Origin: Asticcacaulis sp. ZE23SCel15
GTDB taxonomy: Bacteria; Pseudomonadota; Alphaproteobacteria; Caulobacterales; Caulobacteraceae
Length of the DNA stretch: 64,000 bases
Reading direction: 5' to 3'
NCBI RefSeq assembly: GCF_030505395.1
Contig: NZ_CP130044.1
Span: 481,001 to 545,000 of the forward strand
This document shows, piece by piece, positions 1,479 to 17,114 of the stretch. Made by a program: the position numbers and the translations under genes. Numbering within the stretch: the first letter of the stretch is position 1; the number at the start of each line of letters is the position of its first letter. The notes beneath the pieces were generated by a model. That model was not told the origin of the DNA. It was given only the letters and a program-made list of their open reading frames with translations, and did not search any database.

Positions 1479-3278
1479 ATGACAGGCGGCAAAAGGTTAA
1501 AGGTTAAGGGGCTCGCCTTTATGGCTATGGTGATGGTCAGCGGTCACGCCTGGGCCAAGCCGCCCAAGCCTGCGGATCTGATCCTCACCAACGGCAAAAT
1601 CTATACGGCCAATGCCAGCGATGCCGTCACTGAGGCCATGGCCATTACCGATGGCCGGATTGTATATGTCGGCAATCCCACGGACGCCAAAGCGTTTGCG
1701 GGTAAGACCACCCGCACCATCGACCTGAAGGGGCGCTTTGTCATGCCGGGCCTGATCGACGGGCATATGCACCCGCAGTCGGGGGGGCTGCGCACGCTGG
1801 GGTGCAACCTTAACTATGAGCGCCTGACGCAGGCCGCATTTCTGGCGCGGATACAGGCCTGTCTCGATGCTGAAACCACAGCCAAACCCGATCAGTGGCT
1901 GACGGTGATCAACTGGTTTCAGCAGGACATGATCCCGACCGGCTATGCGCCGACCCGGTACGATCTGGATGGCTTAAATACCCGAAGGCCGGTGATGGTG
2001 CGCTCATCGTTCGGTCATTCTATTCTGGTCAATTCGCGCGCGTTAGAGGTCGCAAACATCACCCGCGCCACCGCCGATCCCAAGGACGGCAAGATTGTCC
2101 GCGACGATAAGGGTGAGGCGACCGGCCTGCTGGAGGAGGGCGCGCAAGGATTGGTGCGCGCGCTGATCCCGCCGCCGGATGCCGCCACCAACCTTAAGGC
2201 CGCGCAGATTGCGCTTAAAATTATGAACGCACAGGGGATCACCAGCTTTCTGGATGTCTATACCGATCCGGAGACACTCACGGCCTATACGGCGATTTAT
2301 AAGGCACGGGCACTGACCGCGCGGGCCGCCTTTGGGGTGCTAATCGATTCAGTCGAAGGCTATGATGTCGCTAAGGCCGTGGATGAGGTCCTGCGCCAGA
2401 AAAAACAGTATGAACAGGCAGCCTTTGGTTCGGCACCCGGCCTGCGCATCCACACCGCCAAGCTGTTTCTGGATGGGGTGATCGCCGCCCCCGCTTTTAC
2501 CGGCGTGATGGTTGAGCCCTATTTCGTCAATAGCGGCACGGCGGATAAGCCCATGTGGCGCCCCGGCGATCACCGCGGGCCTGCGCCTTATTTCACCGCC
2601 GCACAGTTGGAAACCACCTTGTCGAAACTGACGGCAGCCAGCATAGATGCCCACATGCATGCCGATGGTGACGGGGCGGTCAGGCAGGCGCTGGATGCCA
2701 TAGACGCGGTGCGCAAAGAACTTCCGCAGGCCGATATGCGCCCCGCCATCGCCCATGCTGAGATCGTTGATCCCGCCGATTTTGCGCGTTTCAAAGCGCT
2801 TAACGCCCTGCCAGTTTTGTCGTTCCAGTGGCAAAAGCCCGCCGCAGACACCGTCGAAGCCCTGCGCGACTATATGGGCCCTTACCGACACGCCATTGTC
2901 GAACCGGCGGGCCTGCTGGAGATTTATGGCGCCAAAATCGTCTACGGCAGCGACTGGCCCGTCGATGCGCTCAATCCGTGGTTTGCCCTCAAAGTCGGAC
3001 TGACCCGTACCGCCAGCCCCGCCGATGCCGCCAAATATCCCGGTCGCTTAGGGATCGATCCGGGCCTGAGCCTGACGACCGCGCTAAAGGCCATGACCAT
3101 AAATGCCGCCTACAGCCTGCGGGCCGAGACCACCACCGGATCGCTGGAGGTCGGGAAATTCGCCGACCTGATCGTGCTGGATCGCGACCTGTTTGCCATC
3201 GCCCCTGACGATATCGCGGCCACCAAAGTGCTGATGACCATGGTCGGCGGCAAGGTGGTTTATGCGGCTGACAAATAA
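1479..3278 (+). CDS. Exported amidohydrolase, YtcJ-like
   Basis: A 599-residue member of the amidohydrolase superfamily, YtcJ-like (metal-dependent hydrolases of amide or ester bonds in an imidazolonepropionase-type fold). The N-terminus (about residues 10-27, AMVMVSGHAWA) is a signal peptide. A beta-sandwich strand LILTNGKIYTANA opens the fold. LIDGHMHPQ carries the first metal-binding HxH, DAHMHADGDGA a later metal site, and YGSDWPVD the conserved Asp. The end, GSLEVGKFADLIVLDRD, is the usual C-terminal sandwich. GAGGGG about 8 bases before the ATG is the ribosome site. The substrate is unknown. It sits between a glycerophosphodiesterase and a TonB receptor, so degradation of an imported or periplasmic compound is likely. 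An intrinsic terminator follows directly. Confidence 0.85.
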   Translation: MTGGKRLKVKGLAFMAMVMVSGHAWAKPPKPADLILTNGKIYTANASDAVTEAMAITDGRIVYVGNPTDAKAFAGKTTRTIDLKGRFVMPGLIDGHMHPQSGGLRTLGCNLNYERLTQAAFLARIQACLDAETTAKPDQWLTVINWFQQDMIPTGYAPTRYDLDGLNTRRPVMVRSSFGHSILVNSRALEVANITRATADPKDGKIVRDDKGEATGLLEEGAQGLVRALIPPPDAATNLKAAQIALKIMNAQGITSFLDVYTDPETLTAYTAIYKARALTARAAFGVLIDSVEGYDVAKAVDEVLRQKKQYEQAAFGSAPGLRIHTAKLFLDGVIAAPAFTGVMVEPYFVNSGTADKPMWRPGDHRGPAPYFTAAQLETTLSKLTAASIDAHMHADGDGAVRQALDAIDAVRKELPQADMRPAIAHAEIVDPADFARFKALNALPVLSFQWQKPAADTVEALRDYMGPYRHAIVEPAGLLEIYGAKIVYGSDWPVDALNPWFALKVGLTRTASPADAAKYPGRLGIDPGLSLTTALKAMTINAAYSLRAETTTGSLEVGKFADLIVLDRDLFAIAPDDIAATKVLMTMVGGKVVYAADK

Positions 3279-3396: not shown

Positions 3397-6147
3397 TTAC
3401 TTGAACTTATAGGTCAGTTGCAGGAAGCCTGACCGGCCAATGCCATCGTACCAGTTGGCATTATAGAAAGGATATCCGGTCCAGGTCGCATCGCGGATTG
3501 GCTGTTCATCAAACAGGTTGGTGATCGCCAGTGACACCTTGGCCTGATCATTGATGTCGTACTGCACCGAACCGTTCCACAGGTAATAGCCCTTCACATA
3601 GGCGTCTTCGTCATAGTTCGGCAGTTTGCCCAGCCATGTACCGTCGACTGTGAATTTCCATGCGCCTGTGGCTAGAGAGGTCGACAGGGACGACTTATCG
3701 CGCGGGATATAATAGCTGGAATCGGCCGCGAACTTATTCAGATAGTCATCGCCGTCGAAACGCTGATAGTCATGAACGAAGGTATGGGTGTGGCTGCCGG
3801 ACATCGACAGCTTACCGATCGGGGTGTCGAACTTGACCCGTACAGCTACGTCGATACCGTCGGTTTCTTCGTTGGCGACATTGATCGGGTTAATCAGCAG
3901 GGTGCGAATATCGCCCGCCTGAGCCCCGGTTGTATAGCGCACAACGCGGGCGATGGCGTCCTGACAGGTCGGTGAGGTGATATCTTGCTGACCCAGGCGA
4001 CATTCGGCTTCGTTGCGGACCACGCCTTCGGTATCGAGGTCTTCGACCTGGTTGGACATCTCGACCTTAAAGTAGTCGAGCGAGATATCGAACATTGACG
4101 ACGGCGCCCAGACGATGCCGGTATTGAACGACTTCGAGGTTTCCGGTTTCAGGTCCCGGTTACCGTCGCGGCGCACCGAAACACGCGTGGTGTCGCAGTC
4201 TGACGGATCGGTGGTCGGATCATCGCTGAAGCAGGTGTAATAATCCGGCACGCGCCCTTCGACAAAACCGGGGCCGGAATAGACATAGTGCAGGTCGGGC
4301 GCGCGGAAGCCGGTGCCATAGGCGGCCCGGATAAGCAGCGTCTTAAGCGGACGGTATTCCAGCCCGGCATTATAGGTGGTTTCGCCAAACTCGCTGCCGG
4401 CAAAGCTATAGTTATCATAGCGTGCCGCCAGACCCAGTTGCAGATTTTCCAGCAGGGGTGCCGAAATTTCACCACCCAACGCATAGTGGGTGCGTCCGCC
4501 CTTACCGTCTGAATCCACCCAGCTAAAATAATAGGGCGTCAGGGCCTTGGGGTCAGGATTGAGATTATAACCCTGACGGCCATATTCGGCGACCGCGGCA
4601 AAGCCGACCGGACCGGCGGGCAGGCTGAACAGTTCGGTCTTGTTGATGCGGGCGGTCAGTTCGCTGGTCCAGGCCTTGGGCTTATAAAGGCTGGTGGCGG
4701 TGATCGACTTGAATTCCGCAGGCGTCAGCGGGGTGTAATAACGGGTCGGGTCGGCATTAAAGATGGCGTAGCCGTCCGCGTCTGTGCCTTGCTGGGCGCC
4801 CAGATAGAGCGCATTGGCGGCATCGACGACCACCATCGGGAAGCTGATTTCCGACTGATAGATTGAGGCGTTGAGTGCCACTTCATAGTTCCAGTCGGTG
4901 CCGAACGATCCGCGCACGCCCGGTGTTACAGTCAGGGTCTTGGAATCGACCTTACGCATAGCGTTTTGCAGCCCGCCCATTTCTTCAGGCGTGAAGATGC
5001 GGTACCAGTTGTCATAGCGATCATCGAAGCTGTTGTAGAATAGGCCGGTGTCATCGCCGGTCGCATCTTGGTACGACCAGGACAAAGGCCGCTTAAGCAG
5101 CTTCAGTTCCGAAATGCCAAACTGAATGTCAGTGAACAATTCAATCCGGTCGGTAAGCTGATAGCTGAGCGCCGCATAGCCGTTGAAGCTTTCGCGGTCA
5201 GAAACGATAGTGCGGTACCCGATCGAACGATCCGATCCGCAGTAGTAACCACCGTCGCCATAATAGTTGTAATAGTCGTCATAGGCCCGAACCGTCGTGC
5301 CTTCGTTGGTGGCTGCGGTCAGATTACACTGGGCGGCTGTCGGGTTGATGGAATCGTCATAGTCGTCAGTGCGCAGCCAGTTGTAATTCGGCATTTGATA
5401 GGCGGCATCCGGCGCATCGGTGGTGGAGTCCTGACGCGCGCGCTCATAGCCATAGACCGGGTCCTGCTTGGCATATTCCCCGCCGAACACGGCTGAGAAC
5501 TTATCCTTAGAATAGCCCGTCGACAGGTTCAGGCGGTTCGATTTGCCGCCGCCGTCCTCGGTCCAGCCGTAGCGGTAATCGACCGTTGTGCCATCGACCT
5601 TTTTCTTGAGTTTGAAATTGACCACCCCGGCAATGGCATCCGAGCCGTAGATAGCCGAGGCCGATCCGGCCAGGATTTCGACCCGTTCGATCATGCCCAG
5701 CGGAATATTGGACACATCGGTGAAATTCGATTCCCCGTTATAGGGCATGGGATAGTCGGCAATACGGCGGCCGTTGATCATCACCAGAGTATGATTGGGG
5801 CCGAGGCCGCGCAGATTGACCTGCTGCGCACCGGGGGAGAAATCGGCCGCATTACCGCTTTGCTGAGATTGGGTTTCGCCACCGTTTTGCGTTACCGTGC
5901 GCAACAGGTCAGGGACATTGGCATAGCCACCGGCGCGAATGGCCTCAGCATCAATCACGGTAACCGGCGCGGGGCCTTCTTTTTGGGTGCGCGGAATGTT
6001 GGAACCCAGCACCGTCACCGTGGTGATTTCCTCATCCGCAGCCGGTGCAGCCTCCTGCGCCACGGCGCTCAGGCTGATCAGGCTGCAACCCGCCAACAGG
6101 CCAAATTTTACCGAAGTTCTGAACCGTCTGAAGTTTTTAATTGCCAT
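3397..6147 (-). CDS. TonB-dependent outer-membrane receptor
   Basis: A 916-residue outer-membrane receptor for energy-driven uptake of a large substrate. Residues 1-30 are a signal peptide ending SLSAVAQ, followed by a TonB-box-like stretch EEITTVTVLG. The plug domain (about 50-170) has PVTVIDAEAIRAGGYANVPDLL, NLRGLGPNHTLVMINGRRI and IERVEILAGSASAIYGSDA. The rest is a 22-strand barrel rich in Tyr and Asp and ending LQLTYKFK with a C-terminal aromatic strand. AAGGGG lies upstream of the ATG. It diverges from the cyanophycinase-isoaspartyl dipeptidase fusion across a region with two TTGTGATCAC palindromes, so it may import the polymer or peptides that the fusion acts on. That substrate is inferred, not shown. 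Confidence 0.92.
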   Translation of the reverse strand: MAIKNFRRFRTSVKFGLLAGCSLISLSAVAQEAAPAADEEITTVTVLGSNIPRTQKEGPAPVTVIDAEAIRAGGYANVPDLLRTVTQNGGETQSQQSGNAADFSPGAQQVNLRGLGPNHTLVMINGRRIADYPMPYNGESNFTDVSNIPLGMIERVEILAGSASAIYGSDAIAGVVNFKLKKKVDGTTVDYRYGWTEDGGGKSNRLNLSTGYSKDKFSAVFGGEYAKQDPVYGYERARQDSTTDAPDAAYQMPNYNWLRTDDYDDSINPTAAQCNLTAATNEGTTVRAYDDYYNYYGDGGYYCGSDRSIGYRTIVSDRESFNGYAALSYQLTDRIELFTDIQFGISELKLLKRPLSWSYQDATGDDTGLFYNSFDDRYDNWYRIFTPEEMGGLQNAMRKVDSKTLTVTPGVRGSFGTDWNYEVALNASIYQSEISFPMVVVDAANALYLGAQQGTDADGYAIFNADPTRYYTPLTPAEFKSITATSLYKPKAWTSELTARINKTELFSLPAGPVGFAAVAEYGRQGYNLNPDPKALTPYYFSWVDSDGKGGRTHYALGGEISAPLLENLQLGLAARYDNYSFAGSEFGETTYNAGLEYRPLKTLLIRAAYGTGFRAPDLHYVYSGPGFVEGRVPDYYTCFSDDPTTDPSDCDTTRVSVRRDGNRDLKPETSKSFNTGIVWAPSSMFDISLDYFKVEMSNQVEDLDTEGVVRNEAECRLGQQDITSPTCQDAIARVVRYTTGAQAGDIRTLLINPINVANEETDGIDVAVRVKFDTPIGKLSMSGSHTHTFVHDYQRFDGDDYLNKFAADSSYYIPRDKSSLSTSLATGAWKFTVDGTWLGKLPNYDEDAYVKGYYLWNGSVQYDINDQAKVSLAITNLFDEQPIRDATWTGYPFYNANWYDGIGRSGFLQLTYKFK

Positions 6148-6183
6148 TCGTCTAAATCCCCTTAGATATGTACATATGCACCG

Positions 6184-6265
6184 TTGTGATCACGACCGTG
6201 CGCGCCCTGCGCCTATTGCCAAACTGCAAAAACTGGCCAATAAGTTGATGAATTGTGATCACAAT
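6184..6265. promoter_or_regulatory. Paired palindromic operators between receptor and peptidase genes
   Basis: A 14-bp perfect palindrome ATTGTGATCACAAT lies at 6252-6265 and a one-arm-degenerate copy TTGTGATCACGA at 6184-6195, 68 bases apart, in the 216-base gap between divergent genes. They suit a dimeric repressor or activator acting on both promoters. The half-site TGTGA recalls Crp/Fnr-type sites, but the two halves are fused without the usual spacer, so the regulator is not identified. Confidence 0.55.
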
Positions 6266-6363
6266 CTGTACGCATCTGCAAACAATATGTCCCAAGCGCG
6301 CCAATTGCGCCCCAAGTGACACATAATTGTAACATTGCGACAGATCATTTCAGGGGATACCTC

Positions 6364-8283
6364 ATGGGGAACTGGCTCAAAGCTTTAACGGTAGGACTTG
6401 CCGCACTCTGCGGTGCGCTGTCACCGGCCACAGCGCAGGTGCCAACTGACACAGGCTATCAGACCTTTATCATCGGCAAAGAGACGGCCAAACGTACCGG
6501 CAAACCGACCCCCGGCGTGCTAATGAGCGGTGGCGGCGAATGGCCCTATGAGGCGTTTCGCTGGTTTGCCAAAAAATCGGGGAACGGTCATATCGTCGTT
6601 TTGCGCGCATCAGGTACAACCAGCACAGCCGATGAAATGTACGACAAGATTGGCGGTTTTGCCTCGATCCGCACCTTTGTGTTCCATGACCGCAAGGCCG
6701 CCTATGATCCGGTTATTCTGGCGGCGCTCAAATCCGCCGATGGTATTTTTCTGGCGGGCGGCGATCAGGCCCACTACGTCCGGTTCTGGCGCGATACGCC
6801 GGTTCAGACGGCCCTCAACGCCCATATCAAGGCTGGAAAGCCGATAGGTGGCACCAGTGCGGGCCTCGCGGTACAGGGCGAATATCTCTACGGGGCCATG
6901 GACGGCGGCAGCGTCAACAGCGCAGAAGCGCTGGCTGATCCTTTGGGGCCTGCGGTCACCATCGAAGGCGATTTTCTGCGTATTCCTCAGCTTAAGGGCG
7001 TAGTCACCGACAGCCATTTCAAGGAACGCAACCGTCAGGGCCGCCTGGTCGCGTTTCTGGCCAAGGCTCAGACCCTGACGGATAAGCCTCTGGTCGGTTT
7101 AGGCATAGATGAACAGACCGTTCTGACGGTCGAAGGCGACGGCACGGCACGCGTTTATAGCAATATCGGCGGCTATGCCTGGCTGTTTGAACCGGTCGAT
7201 GGCAAAGCCGCCAAGGCCAGCACACCGCTTAGCGTCGATAACATCAAAGCCACCGGCATAGGGGCCGACAGCACATTCAACGTCGTTACCCGTAAAGTGA
7301 CGAAACCGGCTTTTGAAAAACGCTATACCGTCACCAATGGCGTGTTGCGTGAAAAACAGCTCTGGTCTCTGGCCATCCATGGCGGCGCCGGCGTCATTGA
7401 GCGCGGCGACCTGACGCCTGAAAAAGATGCCGCCTATCGCGCCAGCCTGAATGAGGCGCTGAAAACCGGACAGGCCATTCTTGAGCGCGGCGGCACGGCC
7501 CTTGATGCGGTCGAAGCCACGGTGCGCGTACTGGAAGACAACCCCTTATTCAATGCGGGTAAAGGCGCGGTCTTTACCGCCGAAGGTGTCAACGAACTGG
7601 ATGCCGCCATCATGGACGGGGCGACCCAAAAGGCCGGGGCCGTCGCCGGTGTCACCCGCACGAAGAACCCGATTTCACTGGCCCGCCGTGTCATGGAAAA
7701 ATCAGGCCGGGTCATGCTGGCACGCGACGGGGCGGATAGATTTTCGTTCGAGCAGGGGCTTGAGCAGGTCGATCCGAAATATTTCTTCACGCAGGAACGC
7801 TGGGATCAGCTTCAGGCCTGGAAACAGAAAAACATGGCCGCCGTCGATAACACGCACAAATTTGGAACCGTTGGGGCCGTGGCGCTGGATCAAAACGGCA
7901 ATCTGGCGGCGGCGACCTCAACGGGCGGCCTGACCGGTAAGAAATGGGGCCGTATCGGGGATTCGCCTATCATAGGTGCGGGCACCTATGCCAAAAACGG
8001 CGCGTGCGCGGTATCGGCGACCGGATCAGGCGAATATTTCATCCGCGAAAGTGCCGCCCGTCAGGTTTGTGATCGTGTGATCTGGAACCGTCAGGACATC
8101 GCCTCGGCCGCCTTTGATACCATCATGTCGGTCGGTGCCATCGGCGGCGACGGCGGCCTGATCGCCATGGACGCAGCCGGTGAGCCTGCCTTCGGGATCA
8201 ATGATCTGGGCATGTATCGCGGTTTGGTTTCCGCGACCCAATCTGCCGCCACAGCCATCTATGCCGATGAGGTGTTGAAGTAA
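6364..8283 (+). CDS. Exported cyanophycinase-isoaspartyl dipeptidase fusion
   Basis: A 639-residue two-enzyme protein. Residues 1-24 are a signal peptide (MGNWLKALTVGLAALCG, cleavage ATA/Q). Residues about 40-290 are a peptidase S51/cyanophycinase domain: VLMSGGGEW, IFLAGGDQAHY, and GGTSAGLAV with nucleophile Ser165. Residues about 335-639 are a complete Ntn-hydrolase isoaspartyl peptidase/asparaginase (T2) domain: LAIHGGAG, NAGKGAVF, HKFGTVGAVALD with autocleavage Thr502, and GSGEYFIR. Cyanophycinase releases beta-Asp-Arg dipeptides and T2 enzymes split beta-aspartyl dipeptides, so one chain could take cyanophycin to free Asp and Arg in the periplasm or outside. ATG 6364 was chosen because AGGGGA precedes it and it starts the signal peptide; an in-frame upstream ATG at 6316 lacks both. 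Confidence 0.88.
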   Translation: MGNWLKALTVGLAALCGALSPATAQVPTDTGYQTFIIGKETAKRTGKPTPGVLMSGGGEWPYEAFRWFAKKSGNGHIVVLRASGTTSTADEMYDKIGGFASIRTFVFHDRKAAYDPVILAALKSADGIFLAGGDQAHYVRFWRDTPVQTALNAHIKAGKPIGGTSAGLAVQGEYLYGAMDGGSVNSAEALADPLGPAVTIEGDFLRIPQLKGVVTDSHFKERNRQGRLVAFLAKAQTLTDKPLVGLGIDEQTVLTVEGDGTARVYSNIGGYAWLFEPVDGKAAKASTPLSVDNIKATGIGADSTFNVVTRKVTKPAFEKRYTVTNGVLREKQLWSLAIHGGAGVIERGDLTPEKDAAYRASLNEALKTGQAILERGGTALDAVEATVRVLEDNPLFNAGKGAVFTAEGVNELDAAIMDGATQKAGAVAGVTRTKNPISLARRVMEKSGRVMLARDGADRFSFEQGLEQVDPKYFFTQERWDQLQAWKQKNMAAVDNTHKFGTVGAVALDQNGNLAAATSTGGLTGKKWGRIGDSPIIGAGTYAKNGACAVSATGSGEYFIRESAARQVCDRVIWNRQDIASAAFDTIMSVGAIGGDGGLIAMDAAGEPAFGINDLGMYRGLVSATQSAATAIYADEVLK

Positions 8284-8299
8284 CCTGATCAGGCAGTGC

Positions 8300-9574
8300 C
8301 TAAACCTTCTCTGGCTCCGGCACCTCATCCTTATCAAGCTGGCCTTCCCATTTGGCGACGACCGCTGAGGCGACCGTATTGCCAACGACATTGGTGGCAG
8401 AGCGGCCCATATCGAGCAGGTGATCGACCGCCAGCACCAGCCCGATCCACGCTTCCGGATAGCCGAAATAGGTCAGGGTCGCCATGATGACCACCAATGA
8501 CGCGCGCGGCACGCCGGCTATGCCTTTTGAGGTGATGAGCAGTAAAAACAGCATGGCGATGATCTGCTGCACCGACAACTGCACGCCGTGGGCTTGCATA
8601 ATGAAAATCGTCGCAAAGGTGCAGTACATCATCGAACCGTCGAGGTTAAACGAATAGCCGAGCGGCAGGACGAACGACACAATCTTGCGCGGCACGCCGG
8701 ATTTCGGCAGGGCTTCCAGCAGCTTAGGATACGCCGCCTCACTTGATGCCGTCGAAAACGACAAAAGGGTCGCTTCGCGGATATTGCCAAACAGCCGGAA
8801 CGCGACCTTGCCGGTGATCAGCAGCGCCAGCAGGAACAAAAGCCCCCACAGCATCCCCAGCGACAGGTAAAACCCGCCGACAAACTTGGCATAGGTGACC
8901 AGCACCGGCAGGCCCTGCTTGGTCACGGTCGCCGCCAGAGACGCAAAAATCGCAAACGGGGCAAACTTCATGACCAGCTCGGTCACTTTCAGCATAATCT
9001 CGGCCATCTGCTCAACCAGATGCATGATCTGCGGGGCCTTGTTGTCGAGCATGCTGACCGCCGTGCCGACAAAGACCGCAAACACCACGATCTGCAAAAT
9101 CTCGTTCTTAGCCATGGCATCGATGATCGATGACGGCACCAGATGAGAAATAAACCCGGAAACGCTAAAGGTCGTGGCCGTGGGCGCCGTCAGGCCCTCA
9201 CCGGCCGCCGCCGCCATCTGGGCCATTTCCGCGCCCGGTTGAAGCCATTCGACCATGAGTATCCCCATGACCAGCGACACGACCGAGGCCCCTAAAAACC
9301 AGGCCATGGTCTTGGCACCGATGCGCCCGACGGCTGCGGCATCTTCCATGTGGCCAATCCCGGCGACCAGCGTCGTCAGCACTAACGGGGCGATGATCAT
9401 CTTGATCAGGCGCAGAAAAATGTCGGTAATGGTCTTGAAGGTTTCAAGCGCTGTGGCGGTATCGGCCTCGCCCAGATACTGATTGCAGTAATAGCCAACC
9501 CCGACGCCCAGAACCATGGACGCCACCACAAACAGCGCAAACTTGTTTTTCACGAACCGCTCCCGACACTTCAA
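8300..9574 (-). CDS. Dicarboxylate/amino acid:cation symporter (DAACS)
   Basis: A 424-residue inner-membrane carrier of the GltP/DctA family, with about eight membrane helices and two re-entrant loops. Family marks are the serine-rich SFSTASSEAAYPKLLE hairpin, GYSFNLDGSMMY and LDMGRSATNVVGN. The family moves glutamate, aspartate or C4-dicarboxylates with Na+ or H+. It lies 41 bases downstream of the Lrp-type regulator on the same strand, at the tail of the lysine/glutarate operon, so glutarate or 2-aminoadipate are possible substrates. It also ends 16 bases from the convergent cyanophycin-type fusion, so aspartate is the alternative. Confidence 0.9.
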   Translation of the reverse strand: MKCRERFVKNKFALFVVASMVLGVGVGYYCNQYLGEADTATALETFKTITDIFLRLIKMIIAPLVLTTLVAGIGHMEDAAAVGRIGAKTMAWFLGASVVSLVMGILMVEWLQPGAEMAQMAAAAGEGLTAPTATTFSVSGFISHLVPSSIIDAMAKNEILQIVVFAVFVGTAVSMLDNKAPQIMHLVEQMAEIMLKVTELVMKFAPFAIFASLAATVTKQGLPVLVTYAKFVGGFYLSLGMLWGLLFLLALLITGKVAFRLFGNIREATLLSFSTASSEAAYPKLLEALPKSGVPRKIVSFVLPLGYSFNLDGSMMYCTFATIFIMQAHGVQLSVQQIIAMLFLLLITSKGIAGVPRASLVVIMATLTYFGYPEAWIGLVLAVDHLLDMGRSATNVVGNTVASAVVAKWEGQLDKDEVPEPEKV

Positions 9575-9615: not shown

Positions 9616-10059
9616 TTATCGCTCCAGCTTAGTCGCCAATATCACCGAGGTCGTGGTCCGCTCAACCCCCTCCAACGCGCCGATACGGTCCAGCAAATCA
9701 TTCAATTCGACACTGTCCGCCGCCTCGACCATAACGATGACATCGTAGACACCGCTGATGGCGTGGATGGCGCTGATTTCTGGAATTTCTGCCAGTTCGA
9801 CCGCCACCTGCGCGTTGAATTTCGGCAGGCATTTGATCATGACATGAGCGCGCATGCGGGCCTTGGAAAAGGCGGCCCCTAACCTGACTGTATAGCCCGC
9901 AATAATGCCGTCGGTTTCAAAGCGCTCCAGCCGCGTATAGACCTGAGTGCGCGGAATATCGAGTTCCTTGGCCAGATGCGAGATGCCGTGGCGCGAATCT
10001 TCACGCAGCATGGCCAGCAGCTTTCGGTCCGTCTCATCCAGTTTCAGCGCATCGGTCAT
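9616..10059 (-). CDS. Lrp/AsnC family transcriptional regulator
   Basis: A 147-residue regulator. Residues about 6-65 are a winged HTH (LDETDRKLLAMLREDSRHG, then ELDIPRTQVYTRLERFETDG). Residues about 70-145 are the AsnC ligand-binding alpha/beta domain with ISAIHAISGVYDVIVMVEA. The family senses amino acids and often controls its neighbours' catabolic operon. GAGAGGG precedes the ATG. It is 20 bases after the ThDP-enzyme gene and before the DAACS carrier, so it is co-transcribed with the lysine-type pathway and may control it together with the LysR protein at 17206. Confidence 0.9.
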   Translation of the reverse strand: MTDALKLDETDRKLLAMLREDSRHGISHLAKELDIPRTQVYTRLERFETDGIIAGYTVRLGAAFSKARMRAHVMIKCLPKFNAQVAVELAEIPEISAIHAISGVYDVIVMVEAADSVELNDLLDRIGALEGVERTTTSVILATKLER

Positions 10060-10079: not shown

Positions 10080-11732
10080 TTAAGCGCCTTCGGAGATTTG
10101 TTGCAAGGTCTTAGCCGGCGTAATGGCCTGCGGATCGATGAAACAGTGAATGATGGCCGGTTTTCCGGACGCCTGCGCCCGCCCGAATGCCGGGGCGAAC
10201 TCTGCCGTCGTGCGCACGGCTTCACCATGGCCGCCAAAGGCGCGGGCATAGGCCGCGAAGTCCGGATTCTTCAGTTCTGTCCCGATCGGACGGTGCGGAT
10301 ATTCCCGCTCCTGATGCATACGGATAGTGCCCCACATGCCATTGTCGATGACGATGATAATGACGGGTATATCGTATTGCACGGCCGTGGCGAACTCATT
10401 GCCGTTCATCAGGAAACAGCCGTCACCGGCAAAGGTCACGACGGGCACATCCGGGCATTGGCGCTTGGCCATAATTCCGGCGGGCACCGAATAGCCGACA
10501 CTGCCTGATGTGGGGGCGACCTGGGTAAAAGGTTTGTCATGGCGCCAGTAGCGATGCACCCAGATGGCATAGTTACCCGCGCCATTGGTGATGATCGTCT
10601 CCGGCGGCAGGTTTTCCCGCAGCCAGACCATGACCTCACCATACTGAAACGCACCAGGGATCTGAGCGGGTGTCGTGGTCCAGCCCTGCCAATCGGCGTG
10701 AGCAACAGCCGCCCTTTCTCCACCCTGATGATCCGGTGAGGGGCCTAACGCGGTCAAGGCTTTCGCGAACTGATCCGGCGCACTGACGATACCCAGTGAC
10801 GGCTGATAGACGCGTCCGATCTCATCCGCAGCGGGGAAGACATGCACCAGTTTTTGACGAGGTTTGGGCGCATCGATCAGGGTATAACCATTGGACGGCA
10901 CCTCAGCCATCCGCGCCCCCACAAGGATCAGCAGATCGGCGTCCCTGACCCGTTGCGACAGCTTTGGGTTTTGGCCAAAGCCCAGATCACCGGCATAACA
11001 AGAATGGTGAGCGGGAAACAACGACGTGCGGCGAAATTCGGTCGCCACCGGCACATCAAATGTGTTTGCAAACTCAGCGACCGCCGCACACCCCTCGACC
11101 GTCCAGCGCGACCCGCCAAGGATGATCAGCGGATGTTGCGCACCATCCAGCAGATCAGCAAAGGCCTGCATATCGGCGACCGATGGCGCGGCATCGACCG
11201 GCCCAACAGGCGGGGCATCCGCCACCTCGGCCATTTCGGTCAGAATATCTTCGGGCAGGGACACCACCACCGGCCCCGGTCGGCCCTGCATGGCCTCGCG
11301 AAAGGCCCGCGCCACAATTTCCGGGATACGCTTCGGATCGGAAATCTCGACCACCCATTTGGCGATACCGTCAAAAGCCCGCACATAGTCCAGTTCCTGA
11401 AACGCCCCGCGCCCCAGGAAAGCCCGCTCGACCTGCCCCACAAACAGGATCATCGGCGTGCCATCATGCTGCGCAATATGGACGCCGTGGGCAGCATTGG
11501 TTGCCCCCGGCCCGCGCGTCACAAAGCACACGCCGGGCCGTCCGGTCAGCTTGCCATAGGCCTCGGCCATCATCGCCGCCCCGCCTTCGTTGCGGCAAAT
11601 CAGGACGTCGATATCAGCATCGTACATGGCATCAAGGGCGGCCAGATACGACTCCCCCGGCACGCAGGTGATGCGCTCCACGCCGTTGATCTTCAACTGA
11701 TCAACTAAGATTTGTCCGCCGGTCCTAATCAT
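10080..11732 (-). CDS. ThDP-dependent decarboxylase/synthase-like enzyme
   Basis: About 550 residues with the three-domain fold of acetolactate synthase, benzoylformate decarboxylase and related thiamine diphosphate enzymes. The N-terminal Pyr domain has the catalytic Glu49 in CRNEGGAAMMAEAYGKLTG. A middle DHS-like domain has PLIILGG. The C-terminal PP domain has the ThDP/Mg motif GDGCFLMNGNEFATAVQ and DNGMWGTIRMHQE. ATG 11732 overlaps the preceding gene's stop by 8 bases, indicating translational coupling; a longer 11795 start would run into that gene. No acetolactate synthase small subunit is nearby. Position among glutarate-pathway genes suggests a 2-oxo acid such as 2-oxoadipate as substrate. 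That is inference. Confidence 0.8.
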   Translation of the reverse strand: MIRTGGQILVDQLKINGVERITCVPGESYLAALDAMYDADIDVLICRNEGGAAMMAEAYGKLTGRPGVCFVTRGPGATNAAHGVHIAQHDGTPMILFVGQVERAFLGRGAFQELDYVRAFDGIAKWVVEISDPKRIPEIVARAFREAMQGRPGPVVVSLPEDILTEMAEVADAPPVGPVDAAPSVADMQAFADLLDGAQHPLIILGGSRWTVEGCAAVAEFANTFDVPVATEFRRTSLFPAHHSCYAGDLGFGQNPKLSQRVRDADLLILVGARMAEVPSNGYTLIDAPKPRQKLVHVFPAADEIGRVYQPSLGIVSAPDQFAKALTALGPSPDHQGGERAAVAHADWQGWTTTPAQIPGAFQYGEVMVWLRENLPPETIITNGAGNYAIWVHRYWRHDKPFTQVAPTSGSVGYSVPAGIMAKRQCPDVPVVTFAGDGCFLMNGNEFATAVQYDIPVIIIVIDNGMWGTIRMHQEREYPHRPIGTELKNPDFAAYARAFGGHGEAVRTTAEFAPAFGRAQASGKPAIIHCFIDPQAITPAKTLQQISEGA

Positions 11733-12858
11733 GCCACTCTGCCTTACCTTCGCCCAGTTTTGGAGATGGCCCATCGGCCACCATGCGCGCGCCATTGATC
11801 ACAATGGGGGAGGCCACGCCGGATACCGCCCCCAGTTCCAGACGCATACCGCGGTGGATGACCTGCGGGTCGTTAAACACATCACCGATGCGATTGATCG
11901 GCCCGGCAGGCACCCCCGCCGCTTCGAGTTTGGCCAGCAACTCCGCCCGCGTGTGCATCATCATGAACGGCTGTAACGCGGCCTCAAGCTGCACCCGCGA
12001 CGCCACCCGTCCGGCATTGGTTTGATAGGCAGTATTTTCAGCCACATAGTCGGCCTCAAGCACCTGACAAAACCGTCGGAACTGATGGTCATTGCCGACC
12101 GCCACGATGACATGGCCGTCCTTGACCGCAAACACCTGATAGGGCGCAATATTGGGATGGGCATTGCCAAGCCGTGACGGCGATATCCCTGATGTCAGAT
12201 AATTCATCGCCTGATTGGCCAGCATGGCGACCGCGCAATCCATCAGGGCCATATCGATATGGCTGCCTTCGCCGGTCAGATCGCGCTGACGCAAGGCCGC
12301 CAGAATCGCCGTTGAGGCATAGACGCCGGTGAACAGATCGACTACCGCAACACCGACCTTTTGCGGCTCTCGGTGCGGTTCACCGGTGATGTCCATCAGG
12401 CCCGACATGCCCTGAATGATGTAGTCATAACCCGCACGGTGCGCATAGGGCCCGTCCTGCCCAAAGCCGGTGATCGACACATAAACCAGACGCGGATTGA
12501 TAGCTTTCAGGCTATCGTAATCCAGGCCGTATTTTTTCAGACCCCCGACCTTGAAGTTCTCAATCACCACATCGGCGTCGGACACCAGCCGCTTGATCGC
12601 GCCCTGCCCTTCGGGTGTGGCCATATCCAGACAGACCGAAGATTTTCCGCGATTGGTGGCATGGAAATAGGCGGCACCCCAGACACTGCCGTCCGCATCA
12701 TGCACAAAGGGCGGGCCCCAGCCACGGGTGTCATCGCCCTCACCGGGACGCTCAACCTTGATGACCTCGGCGCCCAGATCGGCCAGCACCTGACCGGCCC
12801 ACGGCCCCGCCAGTATCCGCGCCAGTTCTAGAACCTTAATGCCGGATAGTGGTTTCAT
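11725..12858 (-). CDS. CaiB/BaiF family CoA transferase, probable glutarate CoA-transferase
   Basis: A 377-residue class III CoA transferase. LELARILAGPWAGQVLADLGAEVIKVE is summarised here by its start LARILAGPWAG, the N-terminal family mark; ATNRGKSSVCLDM and VVIENFKVGG follow. The catalytic Asp is Asp174 in VAVVDLFTGVY. These enzymes move CoA between carboxylic acids through an aspartyl-CoA anhydride. Adjacency to glutaryl-CoA dehydrogenase matches the gcdH-gcoT pairing of pseudomonads and the human SUGCT role, so it probably activates glutarate to glutaryl-CoA. It is separated from gcdH by 257 bases holding two repeat elements, so it may have its own promoter. Confidence 0.85.
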   Translation of the reverse strand: MKPLSGIKVLELARILAGPWAGQVLADLGAEVIKVERPGEGDDTRGWGPPFVHDADGSVWGAAYFHATNRGKSSVCLDMATPEGQGAIKRLVSDADVVIENFKVGGLKKYGLDYDSLKAINPRLVYVSITGFGQDGPYAHRAGYDYIIQGMSGLMDITGEPHREPQKVGVAVVDLFTGVYASTAILAALRQRDLTGEGSHIDMALMDCAVAMLANQAMNYLTSGISPSRLGNAHPNIAPYQVFAVKDGHVIVAVGNDHQFRRFCQVLEADYVAENTAYQTNAGRVASRVQLEAALQPFMMMHTRAELLAKLEAAGVPAGPINRIGDVFNDPQVIHRGMRLELGAVSGVASPIVINGARMVADGPSPKLGEGKAEWHD

Positions 12859-12865
12859 GTCTTAT

Positions 12866-12982
12866 CTCCTCCCCTGCGATCGCGGGGGAGGTGGCAGCCG
12901 TAAGGCTGACGGAGGGGGCACGGCTGTAAGTTTCCCCCCTCCACCGCTTCGCGGTCCCCCTCCCCCGTAAACGGGGGCGGAG
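12866..12982. repeat. GC-rich compound palindromic element
   Basis: A 117-bp intergenic element with outer complementary ends (CTCCTCCCC and GGGGGCGGAG) and four small internal hairpins: CCCTGCGATCGCGGGG-type, CAGCCGTAAGGCTG, ACCGCTTCGCGGT and CCCCCGTAAACGGGGG. It carries GGAGGTGGCAGCC and GACGGAGGGGG, phrases I associate with a repeat type common between alphaproteobacterial genes. It sits just upstream of the CoA transferase start, so it lies in that gene's leader. A differently composed element is at 31545-31641. Confidence 0.7.
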
Positions 12983-13029
12983 AAAGATCAACACATAATA
13001 TCATTATCCGTTTCTCATTCTTCCCTTAC

Positions 13030-13070
13030 AGGCAAAAAGTACACTGAGGGCTTTTGCCTGAGTCTTTTTT
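13030..13070. terminator. Hairpin with T-rich tail, terminator-like
   Basis: AGGCAAAA (13030-13037) pairs with TTTTGCCT (13052-13059), 14-base loop, followed on the plus strand by GAGTCTTTTTT. It lies within the minus-strand operon gap between gcdH and the CoA transferase. On the minus strand the tail is not T-rich, so a role in attenuating the operon is doubtful. Confidence 0.35.
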
Positions 13071-13119
13071 GTCGCGCATTCAATCCAAAAACCGCTTCAC
13101 ACTTTTTGGCATGCGCTAA
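13071..13119. repeat. Dispersed palindrome copy B
   Basis: GTCGCGCAT ... CCAAAAACCGC ... CACTTTTTGG ... ATGCGCTAA. The inner arms CCAAAAA/TTTTTGG and outer GCGCAT/ATGCGC are complementary. The copy runs four bases into the 3' end of gcdH and covers its stop region. Confidence 0.85.
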
Positions 13120-14279
13120 TAAAACGCCTGAAGGCCCGTCTGTGCGCGACCGAGGATGAGGGCATGAACATCGTGGGTGCCTTCGTAGGTGTTGACGCTC
13201 TCCAGATTCTGGGCGTGGCGCATGACGTGGAACTCCTCATGGATACCGTTGCCACCGTGCATGTCGCGGGCGTGCCTTGCGATCTCCAGCGCCTTGCCGC
13301 AGTTGTTGCGCTTGATCAGTGAGATCATTTCCGGCTGCATTTGCCCCGCGTCAAACAGTTGCCCGACGCGCAGGGCCGCTTGCAGGCCCAGCGTAATCTC
13401 GGTCTGCATGTCGGCCAGCTTCTTCTGGAACAACTGCGTTTGCGCCAAAGGCCGGCCGAACTGCACCCGGTCAAGGCCATACTGCCGCGCCCGATGCCAG
13501 CAGTCTTCCGCCGCCCCCATCACGCCCCAGGCTATGCCATAACGCGCCCGATTGAGACACCCAAACGGCCCTTTGAGGCCGGAGGCATCGGGCAAAATCG
13601 CGTCGTCTCCGACCTCGACATTGTCCATGACAATCTCGCCGGTGATCGAGGCGCGAAGGCTGAGTTTGCCGTGGATTTTCGGCGCGCTCAGGCCCGTCAA
13701 TCCCTTGTCCAAAACAAAGCCACGGATCACCCCGTCCAGCTTGGCCCAAACCACAAACACATCGGCGATCGGTGAGTTCGATATCCACATCTTGGTGCCG
13801 TTGAGGACATAACCGCCGTCCACTTTACGCGCCGTGGTGCGCATTGATCCGGGGTCAGACCCTGCGTCCGGCTCGGTCAACCCAAAGCAGCCGATCCATT
13901 CGCCCGACGCCAGCTTGGGCAGGTATTTTTGCTTTTGCGCCTCAGACCCGTAAGCATGGATTGGATACATAACCAAAGACGACTGCACGCTCATCATCGA
14001 GCGATAGCCGCTATCGACCCGCTCGACCTCGCGCGCGATCAGGCCATAAGCCACATAGCTCGCCCCCGCCCCACCGTATTCTTCCGGCAAAGTCGCACCC
14101 AGCAGACCGCGTTCACCCATCTCACGGAAAATCGTCGGATCGGTGTCTTCTTCGGCATAGGCGCGCAAAACCCGCGGCATCAATGACGATTGCGCATAGT
14201 CGTGGGCCGCATCACGGATCAAACGCTCCTCGTCCGTCAATTGTGCGTCCAAAAGGAAGGGGTCGGACCAGTTAAACAT
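13116..14279 (-). CDS. gcdH: Glutaryl-CoA dehydrogenase
   Basis: A 387-residue acyl-CoA dehydrogenase that converts glutaryl-CoA to crotonyl-CoA and CO2 using [18 protein letters not shown] is the family FAD/substrate loop, and [17 protein letters not shown] and [14 protein letters not shown] follow. [20 protein letters not shown] carries the catalytic Glu366 and is the form found in glutaryl-CoA dehydrogenases rather than generic acyl-CoA dehydrogenases. ATG 14279 overlaps the aldehyde dehydrogenase stop by 8 bases. The open frame continues upstream inside amaB, but that extension has no family similarity. Confidence 0.93.
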
Positions 14280-15783
14280 CGAACATGACCCCCTGAGCCA
14301 AGGGCAAGGTCGTGCCGTAGTTGATGGTGTTGGTGGCGCGGCGCATATAGGCCCGCCAGGAATCAGAGCCCGATTCACGACCGCCGCCGGTTTCTTTTTC
14401 GCCGCCAAAGGCTCCGCCGATTTCCGCCCCCGATGGGCCGATATTGACATTGGCAATACCACAATCCGACCCTGCCGCCGACATGAACAGTTCGGCTTCG
14501 CGGACATCGTTGGTGAAGATCGACGACGACAGCCCCGCCCCCACCGCGTTTTGCAGATCAATCGCGTCACGGATATCCGAATAGCGGATTACATACAGAA
14601 TCGGCCCAAAGGTTTCGCGCAAGACCGGCCCGATGTGCGCGTCCATTTCGACCAGCGCCGGACGGACGTAGTGGCTTTGATGACCATTGATATCGACGCG
14701 CTCGCCACCGGTGACCTTACCGCCAAGGCGGCGCGCTTCATCAAGCGCTTTCTCAAAATTCTGAAACGCCTGCCCATCAATCAGCGGCCCAATCAGGGTG
14801 CCGTCTTCGAGCGGATGACCGACCTTTACCGAGCCATAGGCCTGCTTCAGGCGTGGCACGAAAGCGTCATAGATGCTGTCGTGAACAAACAGGCGGCGCA
14901 GGGTCGTGCAGCGCTGTCCGGCCGTACCCATGGCCGCAAACGCCACGCCACGTAAGGAAAGATCGAGATCAGCCGTTGGGGCGATAATGGCGGCGTTATT
15001 ACCGCCCAGTTCCAGCAGGGCACGGGCGAAACGGGCGGCCAGTTTCGGCCCCACAGCGCGGCCCATAGCCGTCGATCCGGTCGCCGACACCAGCGCAACC
15101 TTATCGTGATCGACCAAGGCTTCGCCGACCGCTTTGCCGCCGATCAGAAGCGCCGACAAACCTTCGGGGATGGCGTATCCGGCAGCCTTATATTTCGCTA
15201 CGGCGCGCTCAAACAACGCATGGGTGGCTAAGGCGGTAAGGGGTGTTTTCTCGGACGGTTTCCAAACGATCGCATCGCCGCACACCAGCGCCAGACAGGC
15301 ATTCCACGCCCACACCGCGACCGGGAAATTAAACGCTGAAATGATACCGACCACGCCGAGCGGATGCCAGGTTTCCATCATACGGTGATCGGCACGCTCC
15401 GTCGCAATCGTCAGGCCGTACAGTTGCCGAGAAAGCCCGACCGCGAAGTCACAGATATCGATCATCTCCTGCACTTCGCCGAGGCCTTCGGAGGTGATCT
15501 TGCCCGCTTCGACCGAGACCAGCTTACCCAGCGCGTCCTTGTGCGCCCGCAGTTCTTCGCCGAACAACCGGACCAGTTCACCGCGCTTAGGGGCCGGGAT
15601 CAGCCGCCATTGCAGATAGGCCTGATGAGCCGCATCAATACGCGCGCTGACTTGCGACACCGAGGTTTCGACCACCTCCGCAATCAACTCACCGGTATTG
15701 GGCGAATGGACCTTCAAGGTCCCGCCCGTGTGGCCAGAGGTAACGCCAAGGCCTTCCAGCAAAATCCGTGTATCCGCGCTCAT
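14272..15783 (-). CDS. amaB: L-aminoadipate-semialdehyde dehydrogenase (ALDH7/antiquitin type)
   Basis: A 503-residue NAD(P)-dependent aldehyde dehydrogenase. [19 protein letters not shown] and [15 protein letters not shown] form the Rossmann region, [11 protein letters not shown] the NAD loop, [11 protein letters not shown] the catalytic Glu loop, and [20 protein letters not shown] the catalytic Cys loop in the form special to ALDH7. In lysine breakdown this enzyme oxidises 2-aminoadipate 6-semialdehyde to 2-aminoadipate. It starts 11 bases after amaA and overlaps gcdH by 8 bases. It might also oxidise glutarate semialdehyde made by the neighbouring ThDP enzyme, but that is inference. Confidence 0.9.
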
Positions 15784-15794
15784 GATTACCCTTC

Positions 15795-17069
15795 CTAAAG
15801 CCTGTGTTCAACCGCATGCAGCATCGCCGCACCGGCTTCATAATAAATCTCTTTGCCGGCCCGTAAGCCCGCCGATTTCGCCACCGTCACCGGCAAGGGC
15901 AGATCGTCTGCGTGCAGGTCTCCGGCGACGTGTTCGGCCAGCACGCGCCCCATGACCGTGCCCGGCGCGATGCCACGACCATTATAGCCTGACACGCCCA
16001 CAACCCGGTCGGCAAAGCGATGAAAGCGCGGCAGATTATCATCGGTCATGCCGATCCAGCCGAACCATTCATACTCAAATCCGATGCCTTTGAGTTGCGG
16101 ATAGACCCGCGTCATGGCCCGTTTGGCCCACTCGCGATGCACGGCGTGCGCCCCATGCCTGAGCGCCCCGACCGAGCCCCAGACCAGCCGTCCCTGCGCA
16201 TCCATCCGAAACGAGGACAGCACTTCAGCCGTATCCCACGCCCCCTGCCCTTGCGGCAAAATGGTGCGCCGGATATCCTCCGGCAAAGGAACCGTCGCCA
16301 TATTGAAATAGGGCAGATGCACCTGCTCTGTCCGGATAATATCCCACGGACCTTGCGCATAGGCATCGGTCGCCATGATCACCCAGTTCGCCGTCACTGA
16401 TCCGGCTGATGTCACCACCCGCCACTGATCGCCGGCTAACTCAACGGCACTGACCGGACTGTCGGTAAACACCTTAGCCCCCGCCGCAATCGCCGCCCGC
16501 CCCAGTCCGCGCACATAGGCCAGCGGCTGGATAGTTCCGGCCCGCAGATCCAGCAGCGCCGCCGGATAGGCGTTTGATCCGACCTTCCCGGCCGTTTCTG
16601 CCGCATTAAGCAACCGCACAGCCGCCCCCCGCGCCTGCCATTGTGCGGCGCGTTGCTGCAATTCTTTGATACCGGATTGACCGACCGCACAGTGCAGTGT
16701 GCCTGCCGTTTGCAGTTCGCAGTCAATGTTGTGCTTAGCCACCCGCGCGAACACTTCCTGCGGCCCGTCACCCAGCACGCTCAGCAGGCGCTCACCATGC
16801 ACCGCCCCCAGAACCTGGGGCAGTTCATCAGGCATGACCCACATCCCGGCATTGACCAGCCCGACATTGCGGCCCGCCCCGCCAAAACCAATGTGTTTGG
16901 CTTCGATCACCGCCACCGACAGGCCGCGCTCCGCCAGATTAAGCGCCGCAGACAATCCGGTATAGCCCGCCCCGACAATGGCGACATCGGCCCGCACATC
17001 GCCCGCCAGCACCGCCGTTTGCGGTGCGTCAGGTGCCGTAGCCTGCCAAAGTCCGTGGGTGAGTGACAT
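15795..17069 (-). CDS. amaA: FAD-dependent oxidoreductase, probable L-pipecolate oxidase
   Basis: About 424 residues of the DAO/PuuB-AmaA family. VADVAIVGAGYTGLSAALNLAERG is the dinucleotide fold, cited here by its core GAGYTGLSAALNLAERG, followed by FGGAGRNVGLVNAGMW. The C-terminal FAD contact is VVGVSGYNGRGIAPGTVMG. These flavoenzymes oxidise secondary amines; AmaA turns L-pipecolate into Delta1-piperideine-6-carboxylate, which opens to aminoadipate semialdehyde, the substrate of the next gene. ATG 17069 begins the region that aligns with the family (MSLTHGLWQ); an in-frame ATG at 17114 is possible and neither has a strong ribosome site. It is the first gene of the minus-strand operon and is divergent from a LysR regulator. 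Confidence 0.85.
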   Translation of the reverse strand: MSLTHGLWQATAPDAPQTAVLAGDVRADVAIVGAGYTGLSAALNLAERGLSVAVIEAKHIGFGGAGRNVGLVNAGMWVMPDELPQVLGAVHGERLLSVLGDGPQEVFARVAKHNIDCELQTAGTLHCAVGQSGIKELQQRAAQWQARGAAVRLLNAAETAGKVGSNAYPAALLDLRAGTIQPLAYVRGLGRAAIAAGAKVFTDSPVSAVELAGDQWRVVTSAGSVTANWVIMATDAYAQGPWDIIRTEQVHLPYFNMATVPLPEDIRRTILPQGQGAWDTAEVLSSFRMDAQGRLVWGSVGALRHGAHAVHREWAKRAMTRVYPQLKGIGFEYEWFGWIGMTDDNLPRFHRFADRVVGVSGYNGRGIAPGTVMGRVLAEHVAGDLHADDLPLPVTVAKSAGLRAGKEIYYEAGAAMLHAVEHRL

Positions 17070-17114
17070 ATCGGTTTCCGCCGCGCCCTGATTTGGGTTT
17101 ACACGCAAGATCAT

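Follow-up and report, generated by a model that had tools for sequence, protein, structure and literature searches.

In a stretch of 64,000 nucleotides from Asticcacaulis sp. ZE23SCel15, called here the window, one gene was found to encode a single exported polypeptide in which a cyanophycinase-type domain of peptidase family S51 is joined to an isoaspartyl peptidase domain of the IaaA type. The use of outside cyanophycin by bacteria is known, and its uptake and final breakdown in Gram-negative species are poorly described. In our opinion, the fused protein is probably an exported two-step depolymerase of beta-aspartyl polymers that belongs to a scavenging locus coupled to a TonB-dependent receptor. 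Scavenging is the best-supported reading of the data, and cyanophycin itself, to judge by the sequence, is likely to be the substrate.

Architecture and export of the fused enzyme

Positions 6364–8283 of the plus strand form one unbroken open reading frame (ORF), which begins with the ATG at 6364, has its stop codon ending at 8283 and encodes 639 amino acids. In Pfam searches, Peptidase_S51 (best stretch 118–261, 42.1 bits at a cut-off of 23.9) and Asparaginase_2 (residues 334–633, 350 bits at a cut-off of 27) were both recognized in this protein, and the NCBIfam equivalogs for the two activities matched below their cut-offs (for PRK10226, beta-aspartyl-peptidase, 301.9 bits against 567). A preliminary description of this DNA had claimed a single exported chain made of a cyanophycinase and an isoaspartyl dipeptidase, with catalytic centres at Ser165 (GGTSAG) and Thr502 (GTVGAV), and had proposed a profile search of each half. 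The intact frame with two Pfam domains bears this out, both centres sit where they had been placed, and the observation of an exported two-domain fusion is confirmed. Both catalytic sets are complete in the window protein, which rules out a decayed half.

The residues of the S51 half were followed in an alignment of 60 rows (A2), consisting of the window protein and 59 fused loci from the species-wide scan described below. Gln135, Ser165, Asp216, His218, Arg222, Arg224 and Arg227 are each present in 60/60 rows. The corresponding published residues are Ser132, Gln101, Asp172, Gln173, Arg178, Arg180 and Arg183 in the intracellular cyanophycinase CphB, and Ser171, His224, Glu251, Gln136, Asp222, Arg228, Arg230 and Arg233 in the extracellular cyanophycinase CphE, where Thr223 replaces Gln173 of CphB (PMC3235067). 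At this last position the fusions have Thr in 52 cases and Ser in eight, the window protein being among the latter, and the distance from the catalytic Ser to His is 53 residues in all 60, as in CphE (171 to 224), against 42, counted in the alignment, in CphB. By these features the predicted S51 half follows CphE in most, not all, respects. In the PDB sequence search, the N-terminal half was nearest to the cyanophycinases 3en0 and 7uqw. Its structure, predicted alone from 48 rows (the window protein and 47 of the 80 scan loci), had a mean local confidence score (pLDDT) of 92.8 and a predicted template modelling score (pTM) of 0.92, and the best Foldseek matches were 7uqw, 7uqv and 3en0, with E-values of about 1e-15 to 1e-14.

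The C-terminal half is of the isoaspartyl peptidase type, as had been claimed, and its precise class is that of the N-terminal nucleophile (Ntn) enzymes IaaA, not of the metal-dependent dipeptidases IadA. Its nearest solved structure by sequence is E. coli IaaA/EcAIII (2zak, E-value 2.6e-79), with 48% identity in the fold alignment. Asn397, Gly501, Thr502, Thr520, Arg530, Asp533, Thr553, Gly554 and Gly556 are found in 60/60 fusions, and the beta-subunits of solved structures start at the residue aligned with Thr502. The roles of these residues are presumably those known in general for EcAIII. The whole chain, predicted from the 60-row alignment, had a pLDDT of 88 and a pTM of 0.66, with 2zak as the best match; at this pTM the mutual placement of the S51 and IaaA domains is not fixed by the model. 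A search of the genome itself with the whole fusion protein gave, besides the protein itself, one further IaaA-like match only (45%, residues 333–621), and a search of a viral structure library gave no match at an E-value of 0.001.

The N-terminus of the window protein resembles a Sec signal peptide, with AxA before Gln25, in agreement with the signal peptide proposed earlier from the sequence. Relatives were examined by a rule-based check requiring a hydrophobic stretch, a preceding positive charge, small residues after it and a Met, with some genomes counted twice (for example, L041 and L074). A signal was called in 72/76 related fusion ORFs and in 11/380 internal control segments; among separate genes it was called in 33/35 ORFs with S51 only and in 16/16 with IaaA only. 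The six misses comprise the ORFs of L050 and L051, which start late, and four others that are signal-like by eye. Even when they are encoded separately, both halves look exported, and this speaks most strongly for both steps taking place in one exported compartment. The separate S51 proteins of L090, L117 and L128, from Lysobacteraceae-type genomes, carry a lipobox-like Cys at the N-terminus and are probably envelope lipoproteins.

Distribution of the fusion and the genes around it

In the family, for which 199 genomes were searched, the matches listed place the full-length fusion in 15, all of the same genus as the window and including its own genome; the other 14 are 62–98% identical to it. 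In the species-wide scan, made with one genome per species and the S51 alignment A1, the best 80 of at least 576 relatives were kept. In 59 of these loci S51 and IaaA share one ORF, and in seven IaaA lies on the same strand within 1.5 kb. The 15 genomes of one genus together with the 59 of 80 scan loci rule out a single-genome artefact; the fused share says nothing about S51 proteins at large, because the 80 are the nearest relatives. They come mostly from Caulobacterales, Sphingomonadales and Lysobacterales (Lysobacter, Luteimonas, Pseudoxanthomonas, Xanthomonas, Thermomonas, Dokdonella and Rhodanobacter), together with proteobacterial metagenome-assembled genomes (MAGs), and the fusion was also found on two Novosphingobium plasmids.

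The history of the fusion was followed on quick trees, whose rows were thinned at about 95% identity (S51 from 112 to 92, with the second S51 of L135 omitted, and IaaA from 93 to 73). Fused and separate states change nine times among the 92 S51 rows, seven of these changes being forced by starred branches, and six times among the 73 IaaA rows, with four so forced. Since the two states alternate on both trees, there is no support for a fusion that arose once and never changed afterwards; joining or splitting probably happened repeatedly, with gain and loss indistinguishable on these trees. In one genome (G133) a second copy of the locus lies about 23–25 kb from the first (L051:7890-11826), with an open but N-terminally shortened S51-IaaA frame and with receptor and AsnC matches in pieces; it is a decaying duplicate.

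The gene of a TonB-dependent receptor diverges from the fusion gene 216 bp upstream of it (Table 1), as had been claimed in the preliminary description. In a search with a profile grown from the window receptor, covering about 6 kb of fetched flank per locus, an upstream receptor on the opposite strand was found at 71/80 loci and at 55/59 fused ones, although two of the 71 (L092 and L153) gave weak matches only, of 66–69 bits. Among the nine others, four have a receptor match that was not counted as upstream: in L128, L135 and L148 the frames overlap in the profile count, and the locus survey does place a receptor upstream, whereas in L100 it lies downstream. The remaining five have no receptor match within the fetched flank. 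Across the 3.77 Mb of the window's genome, 66 plug-domain matches were counted, or about 2% of the genes if these number some 3,400 (an estimate). Set against this genome-wide density, the recurrence at 71/80 loci is hardly due to chance, with the reservation that the loci are kin. The pair of receptor and S51 genes also persists where IaaA is on another contig (L061–L064) or is not seen nearby (L065–L067). A promoter scan of positions 6100–8600 found three sites where shuffled sequence gave 1.2 on average, and was uninformative.

Table 1. Features of the fusion locus in the window (positions counted from its first nucleotide).
Feature	Position	Strand	Basis
Fusion protein, 639 aa: signal peptide, S51 cyanophycinase-type domain and IaaA-type isoaspartyl peptidase domain	6364..8283	+	ORF listing, Pfam, NCBIfam, PDB sequence search
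Signal peptide, residues 1-24, AxA before Gln25	6364..6435	+	Read from sequence; rule-based check on relatives
S51 domain, residues 26-325: Gln135, Ser165, Asp216, His218, Arg222, Arg224, Arg227, Glu250	6439..7338	+	Pfam, alignments, predicted fold
Codon of predicted nucleophile Ser165 (GGTSAG)	6856..6858	+	Invariant 60/60
IaaA (Ntn) domain, residues 334-639: Asn397, Thr502, Thr520, Arg530, Asp533, Thr553	7363..8280	+	Pfam, PDB sequence search, alignment, fold match
Codon of Thr502, predicted autoproteolysis site (Gly501/Thr502) and catalytic nucleophile	7867..7869	+	Gly501 and Thr502 in 60/60
Divergent TonB-dependent receptor, 916 aa, plug and barrel	3397..6147	-	Pfam; kept at 71/80 related loci
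Intergenic region common to receptor and fusion, presumably holding both promoters	6148..6363	.	Gene coordinates
Sodium:dicarboxylate-family (DctA/GltP-type) symporter; plausible aspartate importer	8300..9574	-	Pfam, NCBIfam, locus survey
Lrp/AsnC-type regulator	9616..10059	-	Pfam, locus survey
Amidohydro_3 amidohydrolase	1479..3278	+	Pfam, locus survey

In four Lysobacterales loci, three fused (L084, L098 and L130) and one with separate genes (L136), genes of an extracytoplasmic function (ECF) sigma factor and of FecR lie between the receptor and the enzyme, and the receptor of L084, the sole one of these four that was scanned, has an STN domain. ECF and FecR genes together with an STN-bearing receptor are the known arrangement for surface signalling and induction by an outside ligand. 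That it holds for all Lysobacterales is unsupported: in L088, L090, L117, L128 and L151 the receptor stands close to the enzyme gene and leaves no room for such genes.

Receptors at the same site come in strongly different types, as seen from the comparison of the window receptor with that of another genome (G060, L041:5480-8203). The fusion proteins of these two genomes are 98% identical and the receptors 52% (81–84% over the first 200 residues and 30–51% over the rest), and the G060 receptor is closer to those of more distant genomes (75% to L045 and 68–69% to L048–L050). This difference looks like the replacement of a barrel, perhaps under the pressure of phages or toxins or for another ligand.

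As for the other genes of the locus, an Lrp/AsnC-type gene directly follows the enzyme gene in many alphaproteobacterial relatives, and an Amidohydro_3 gene adjoins the receptor in 14/15 fusion loci of the genus (L040–L054, L051 being the exception). In the window, this gene stands two genes upstream of the fusion, and in one gammaproteobacterial MAG (L100:5896-8667) S51 is fused to a protein of the same Amidohydro_3 family and not to IaaA; such an enzyme may be an alternative partner of S51. A glycerophosphodiester phosphodiesterase-like gene at 190–1417 is divided between two ORFs in different frames, whereas L040–L042 have it in a single frame, and the split is a frameshift or a sequence error. 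After the AsnC gene, a run on the minus strand at 10080–17114 encodes a thiamine pyrophosphate enzyme, a family III coenzyme A transferase, an acyl-CoA dehydrogenase, an aldehyde dehydrogenase and a flavin adenine dinucleotide (FAD) oxidoreductase. It occurs, whole or in part, only in L040–L042, except for an aldehyde dehydrogenase, 73–74% identical and 6–7 kb away, in L055 and L056. We take this run to resemble an operon for the degradation of amino acids, of the lysine/glutarate type.

Substrate and role of the enzyme

According to the proposed scheme, the S51 half (Ser165-His218-Glu250) would cut cyanophycin, or a polymer closely similar to it, along its poly-Asp backbone and release beta-Asp-X dipeptides. 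The IaaA half would cleave itself between Gly501 and Thr502, giving an S51-alpha piece (25–501) and a beta piece (502–639) that stay together, and would hydrolyse beta-Asp-Arg to free Asp and Arg in the compartment of the first step. Soluble fragments may pass the outer membrane through the receptor, and aspartate may be taken up by carriers, of which the neighbouring symporter is an example. Tethering would hold both enzymes in one place and in one ratio, and true substrate channelling between the sites is possible.

The absence of a cyanophycin synthetase (CphA) from the window had been taken earlier as a sign of scavenging and not storage. This now extends to the whole genome, which is 99.88% complete and has no CphA over the TIGR02068 cut-off (ten sub-cut-off matches are presumably related ligases), so that a storage role in this genome is ruled out. 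As a general argument the claim does not stand: in a survey of 49 other fusion genomes, drawn from 50 of the 59 fused loci, CphA was over the cut-off in 18, the five Asticcacaulis genomes among the 49 having none. These 18 genomes are what might suggest that the fusion recycles the cell's own stored cyanophycin. The standard cyanophycinase was sought with TIGR02069 in all 18 and in 17 CphA-less genomes. It is over the cut-off in 17/18 of the former and, by coordinates, no more than 300 bp from CphA in 16/18, and the fusion is found on a different contig or at a distance of 84 kb or more, which implies another role for the fusion. In G222 the standard enzyme is on a contig other than that of CphA, G240 has no TIGR02069 match over the cut-off despite its CphA, and the standard enzyme was also found in 2/17 CphA-less genomes (G206, beside a CphA fragment, and G218). 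Thus, with one exception, the fusion is, by its predicted function, an additional enzyme in cyanophycin makers. The fusion moreover looks exported, whereas the polymer is intracellular, and we regard storage recycling as extremely improbable.

A number of points weigh against an exported depolymerase of a scavenging locus, especially one for cyanophycin. The window protein scores 85 bits with TIGR02069, the NCBIfam equivalog for cyanophycinase, and does not reach the cut-off of 126.6; in 35 other genomes, the matches whose open frames have the size of a fusion are likewise below it, whereas cyanophycinases adjoining CphA are above it. The S51 half is just 21–26% identical to solved proteins of the CphB type, the catalytic Glu250 is kept in 58/60 fusions (Gln in L123 and L142), and the distance from His to Glu is 32–39 residues across the 60 fusions against 27 in CphE and CphB. 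In 14 of the best 80 loci no IaaA was found in the flanking sequence fetched, which measured 6 kb at most. The symporter, a dicarboxylate/amino acid carrier that had been counted in favour of scavenging, is indeed present, but it was found at the locus only in the nearest relatives L040–L042 (L074 is the locus of L041) and in L148 from Novosphingobium, with a distant relative (29%) in L067; being kept almost solely in the nearest relatives, it is weak evidence for scavenging and is ruled out as a core part of the locus. Cyanophycin is large and poorly soluble, and its route to a periplasmic enzyme is a difficulty. Finally, IaaA enzymes are promiscuous, and one IadA and one IaaA from CphA-containing clusters stay so, according to PMC10206079.

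The distant relation of the S51 half to solved cyanophycinases would also agree with a protein that removes, in the periplasm or the medium, isoaspartyl (beta-linked Asp) peptides derived from proteins that have aged or been deamidated, with cyanophycin not being a substrate. Isoaspartyl dipeptides do not need a cyanophycinase-type S51 domain with three pocket Arg in 60/60 fusions, and the TonB receptor, with ECF and FecR genes in the four Lysobacterales loci, points to an imported ligand; such clearance seems to us quite improbable.

A more serious caution comes from 7uqv, deposited as 'pseudo-CphB', which shares the fold and keeps the catalytic Ser, His and Glu and the pocket Gln, Asp and three Arg. 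We take this protein to be inactive on cyanophycin. It is chiefly for this reason that cyanophycin is not regarded here as the proven substrate, because a protein with the same residues and fold may lack the activity. The fusion might accordingly act on another beta-aspartyl polymer or conjugate, such as pseudo-cyanophycin, an Asp-linked natural product or a peptide imported through TonB, and the strongly different receptor types at this site would fit such a role. The S51 members PepE and MccG do act on other Asp compounds (PMC9239234). The pattern of 7uqv, however, is that of CphB (Gln, Ser-His spacing of 42), whereas the fusions are CphE-like in residues and spacing, and enzymes of the type of their IaaA partner carry out the last step in the breakdown of cyanophycin. 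Another beta-aspartyl substrate is therefore considered rather unlikely.

Scavenging by an exported depolymerase thus remains the preferred reading. In its strongest form, one chain would convert the polymer completely to free Asp and Arg with the dipeptide handed between sites, a dedicated TonB receptor would import cyanophycin fragments, and FecR/ECF signalling would serve the system in Lysobacterales; this complete scheme can be advanced only tentatively. If it is true, it would mean a widespread transfer of nitrogen from cyanophycin makers to Gram-negative scavengers, undescribed in the open-access literature searched. The recurrent fusion ties both degradative steps together functionally and exposes many candidate scavengers in Caulobacterales, Sphingomonadales and Lysobacterales, and the receptor is a candidate outer-membrane transporter of a cyanophycin-like polymer or its fragments. 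In practical use, one purified protein might convert cyanophycin directly to amino acids.

Comparison with known systems

The extracellular CphE (Pseudomonas anguilliseptica / P. alcaligenes, family S51), compared here by its published residue positions alone, resembles the fusion in the Sec-type signal, the Ser/His/Glu set, the pocket Gln, Asp and three Arg, the hydroxyl residue at the place of CphB Gln173 (Thr in CphE, Ser in the window protein) and the Ser-His spacing. It differs in the shorter His-Glu distance and in being the product of a 1260-bp gene that releases dipeptides, whereas the fusion has an IaaA domain on the same chain. Intracellular CphB (3en0 and 7uqw, the best PDB matches) has the same fold and the same catalytic and pocket residues, but it is not exported, is only 24–26% identical to the signal-bearing fusion, and has Gln173 and the shorter Ser-His spacing. 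Autoproteolytic IaaA/EcAIII, an isoaspartyl peptidase and L-asparaginase, shares the catalytic positions and the Gly-Thr cleavage site with the window version, which differs from it in bearing a signal and in being tethered to an S51 domain.

A cyanophycin utilization locus composed of genes for a cyanophycinase, an isoaspartyl dipeptidase and a transporter has been described (Ben Hania et al., as cited in PMC10206079). According to the latter paper, 52 CphA-less genomes have a cyanophycinase together with IaaA or IadA, the genes are clustered in 45 of them, probably for scavenging, and such clusters often include amino acid transporters. The present locus is similar in that both activities, here by homology, are encoded together in a genome without CphA, and different in that the two separate genes are replaced by one chain and a TonB receptor is added; the words 'fusion' and 'fused' are absent from the main text of PMC10206079. 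In Citromicrobium sp. JLT1363, a TonB receptor was noted near a cyanophycinase gene in 2012, and cyanophycin was listed as its possible substrate (PMC3400609). That work shares with the present one the pairing of receptor and cyanophycinase genes and the suggestion that the receptor takes cyanophycin, but it was a single case, and the accessible text mentions neither a fusion nor an isoaspartyl peptidase ('asparaginase' has 0 occurrences). No report of an S51-IaaA fusion was found in the open-access literature searched, subscription papers and domain-architecture databases being outside that search.

Summarizing this comparison, it may be concluded that earlier papers have already described both the clustering of two separate genes for scavenging and a cyanophycinase gene with a TonB receptor next to it. 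Apparently new are the wide occurrence of the joined enzyme, its seemingly repeated formation or splitting, its tie to a TonB receptor and, for at least four of the Lysobacterales loci, its link with ECF and FecR genes.

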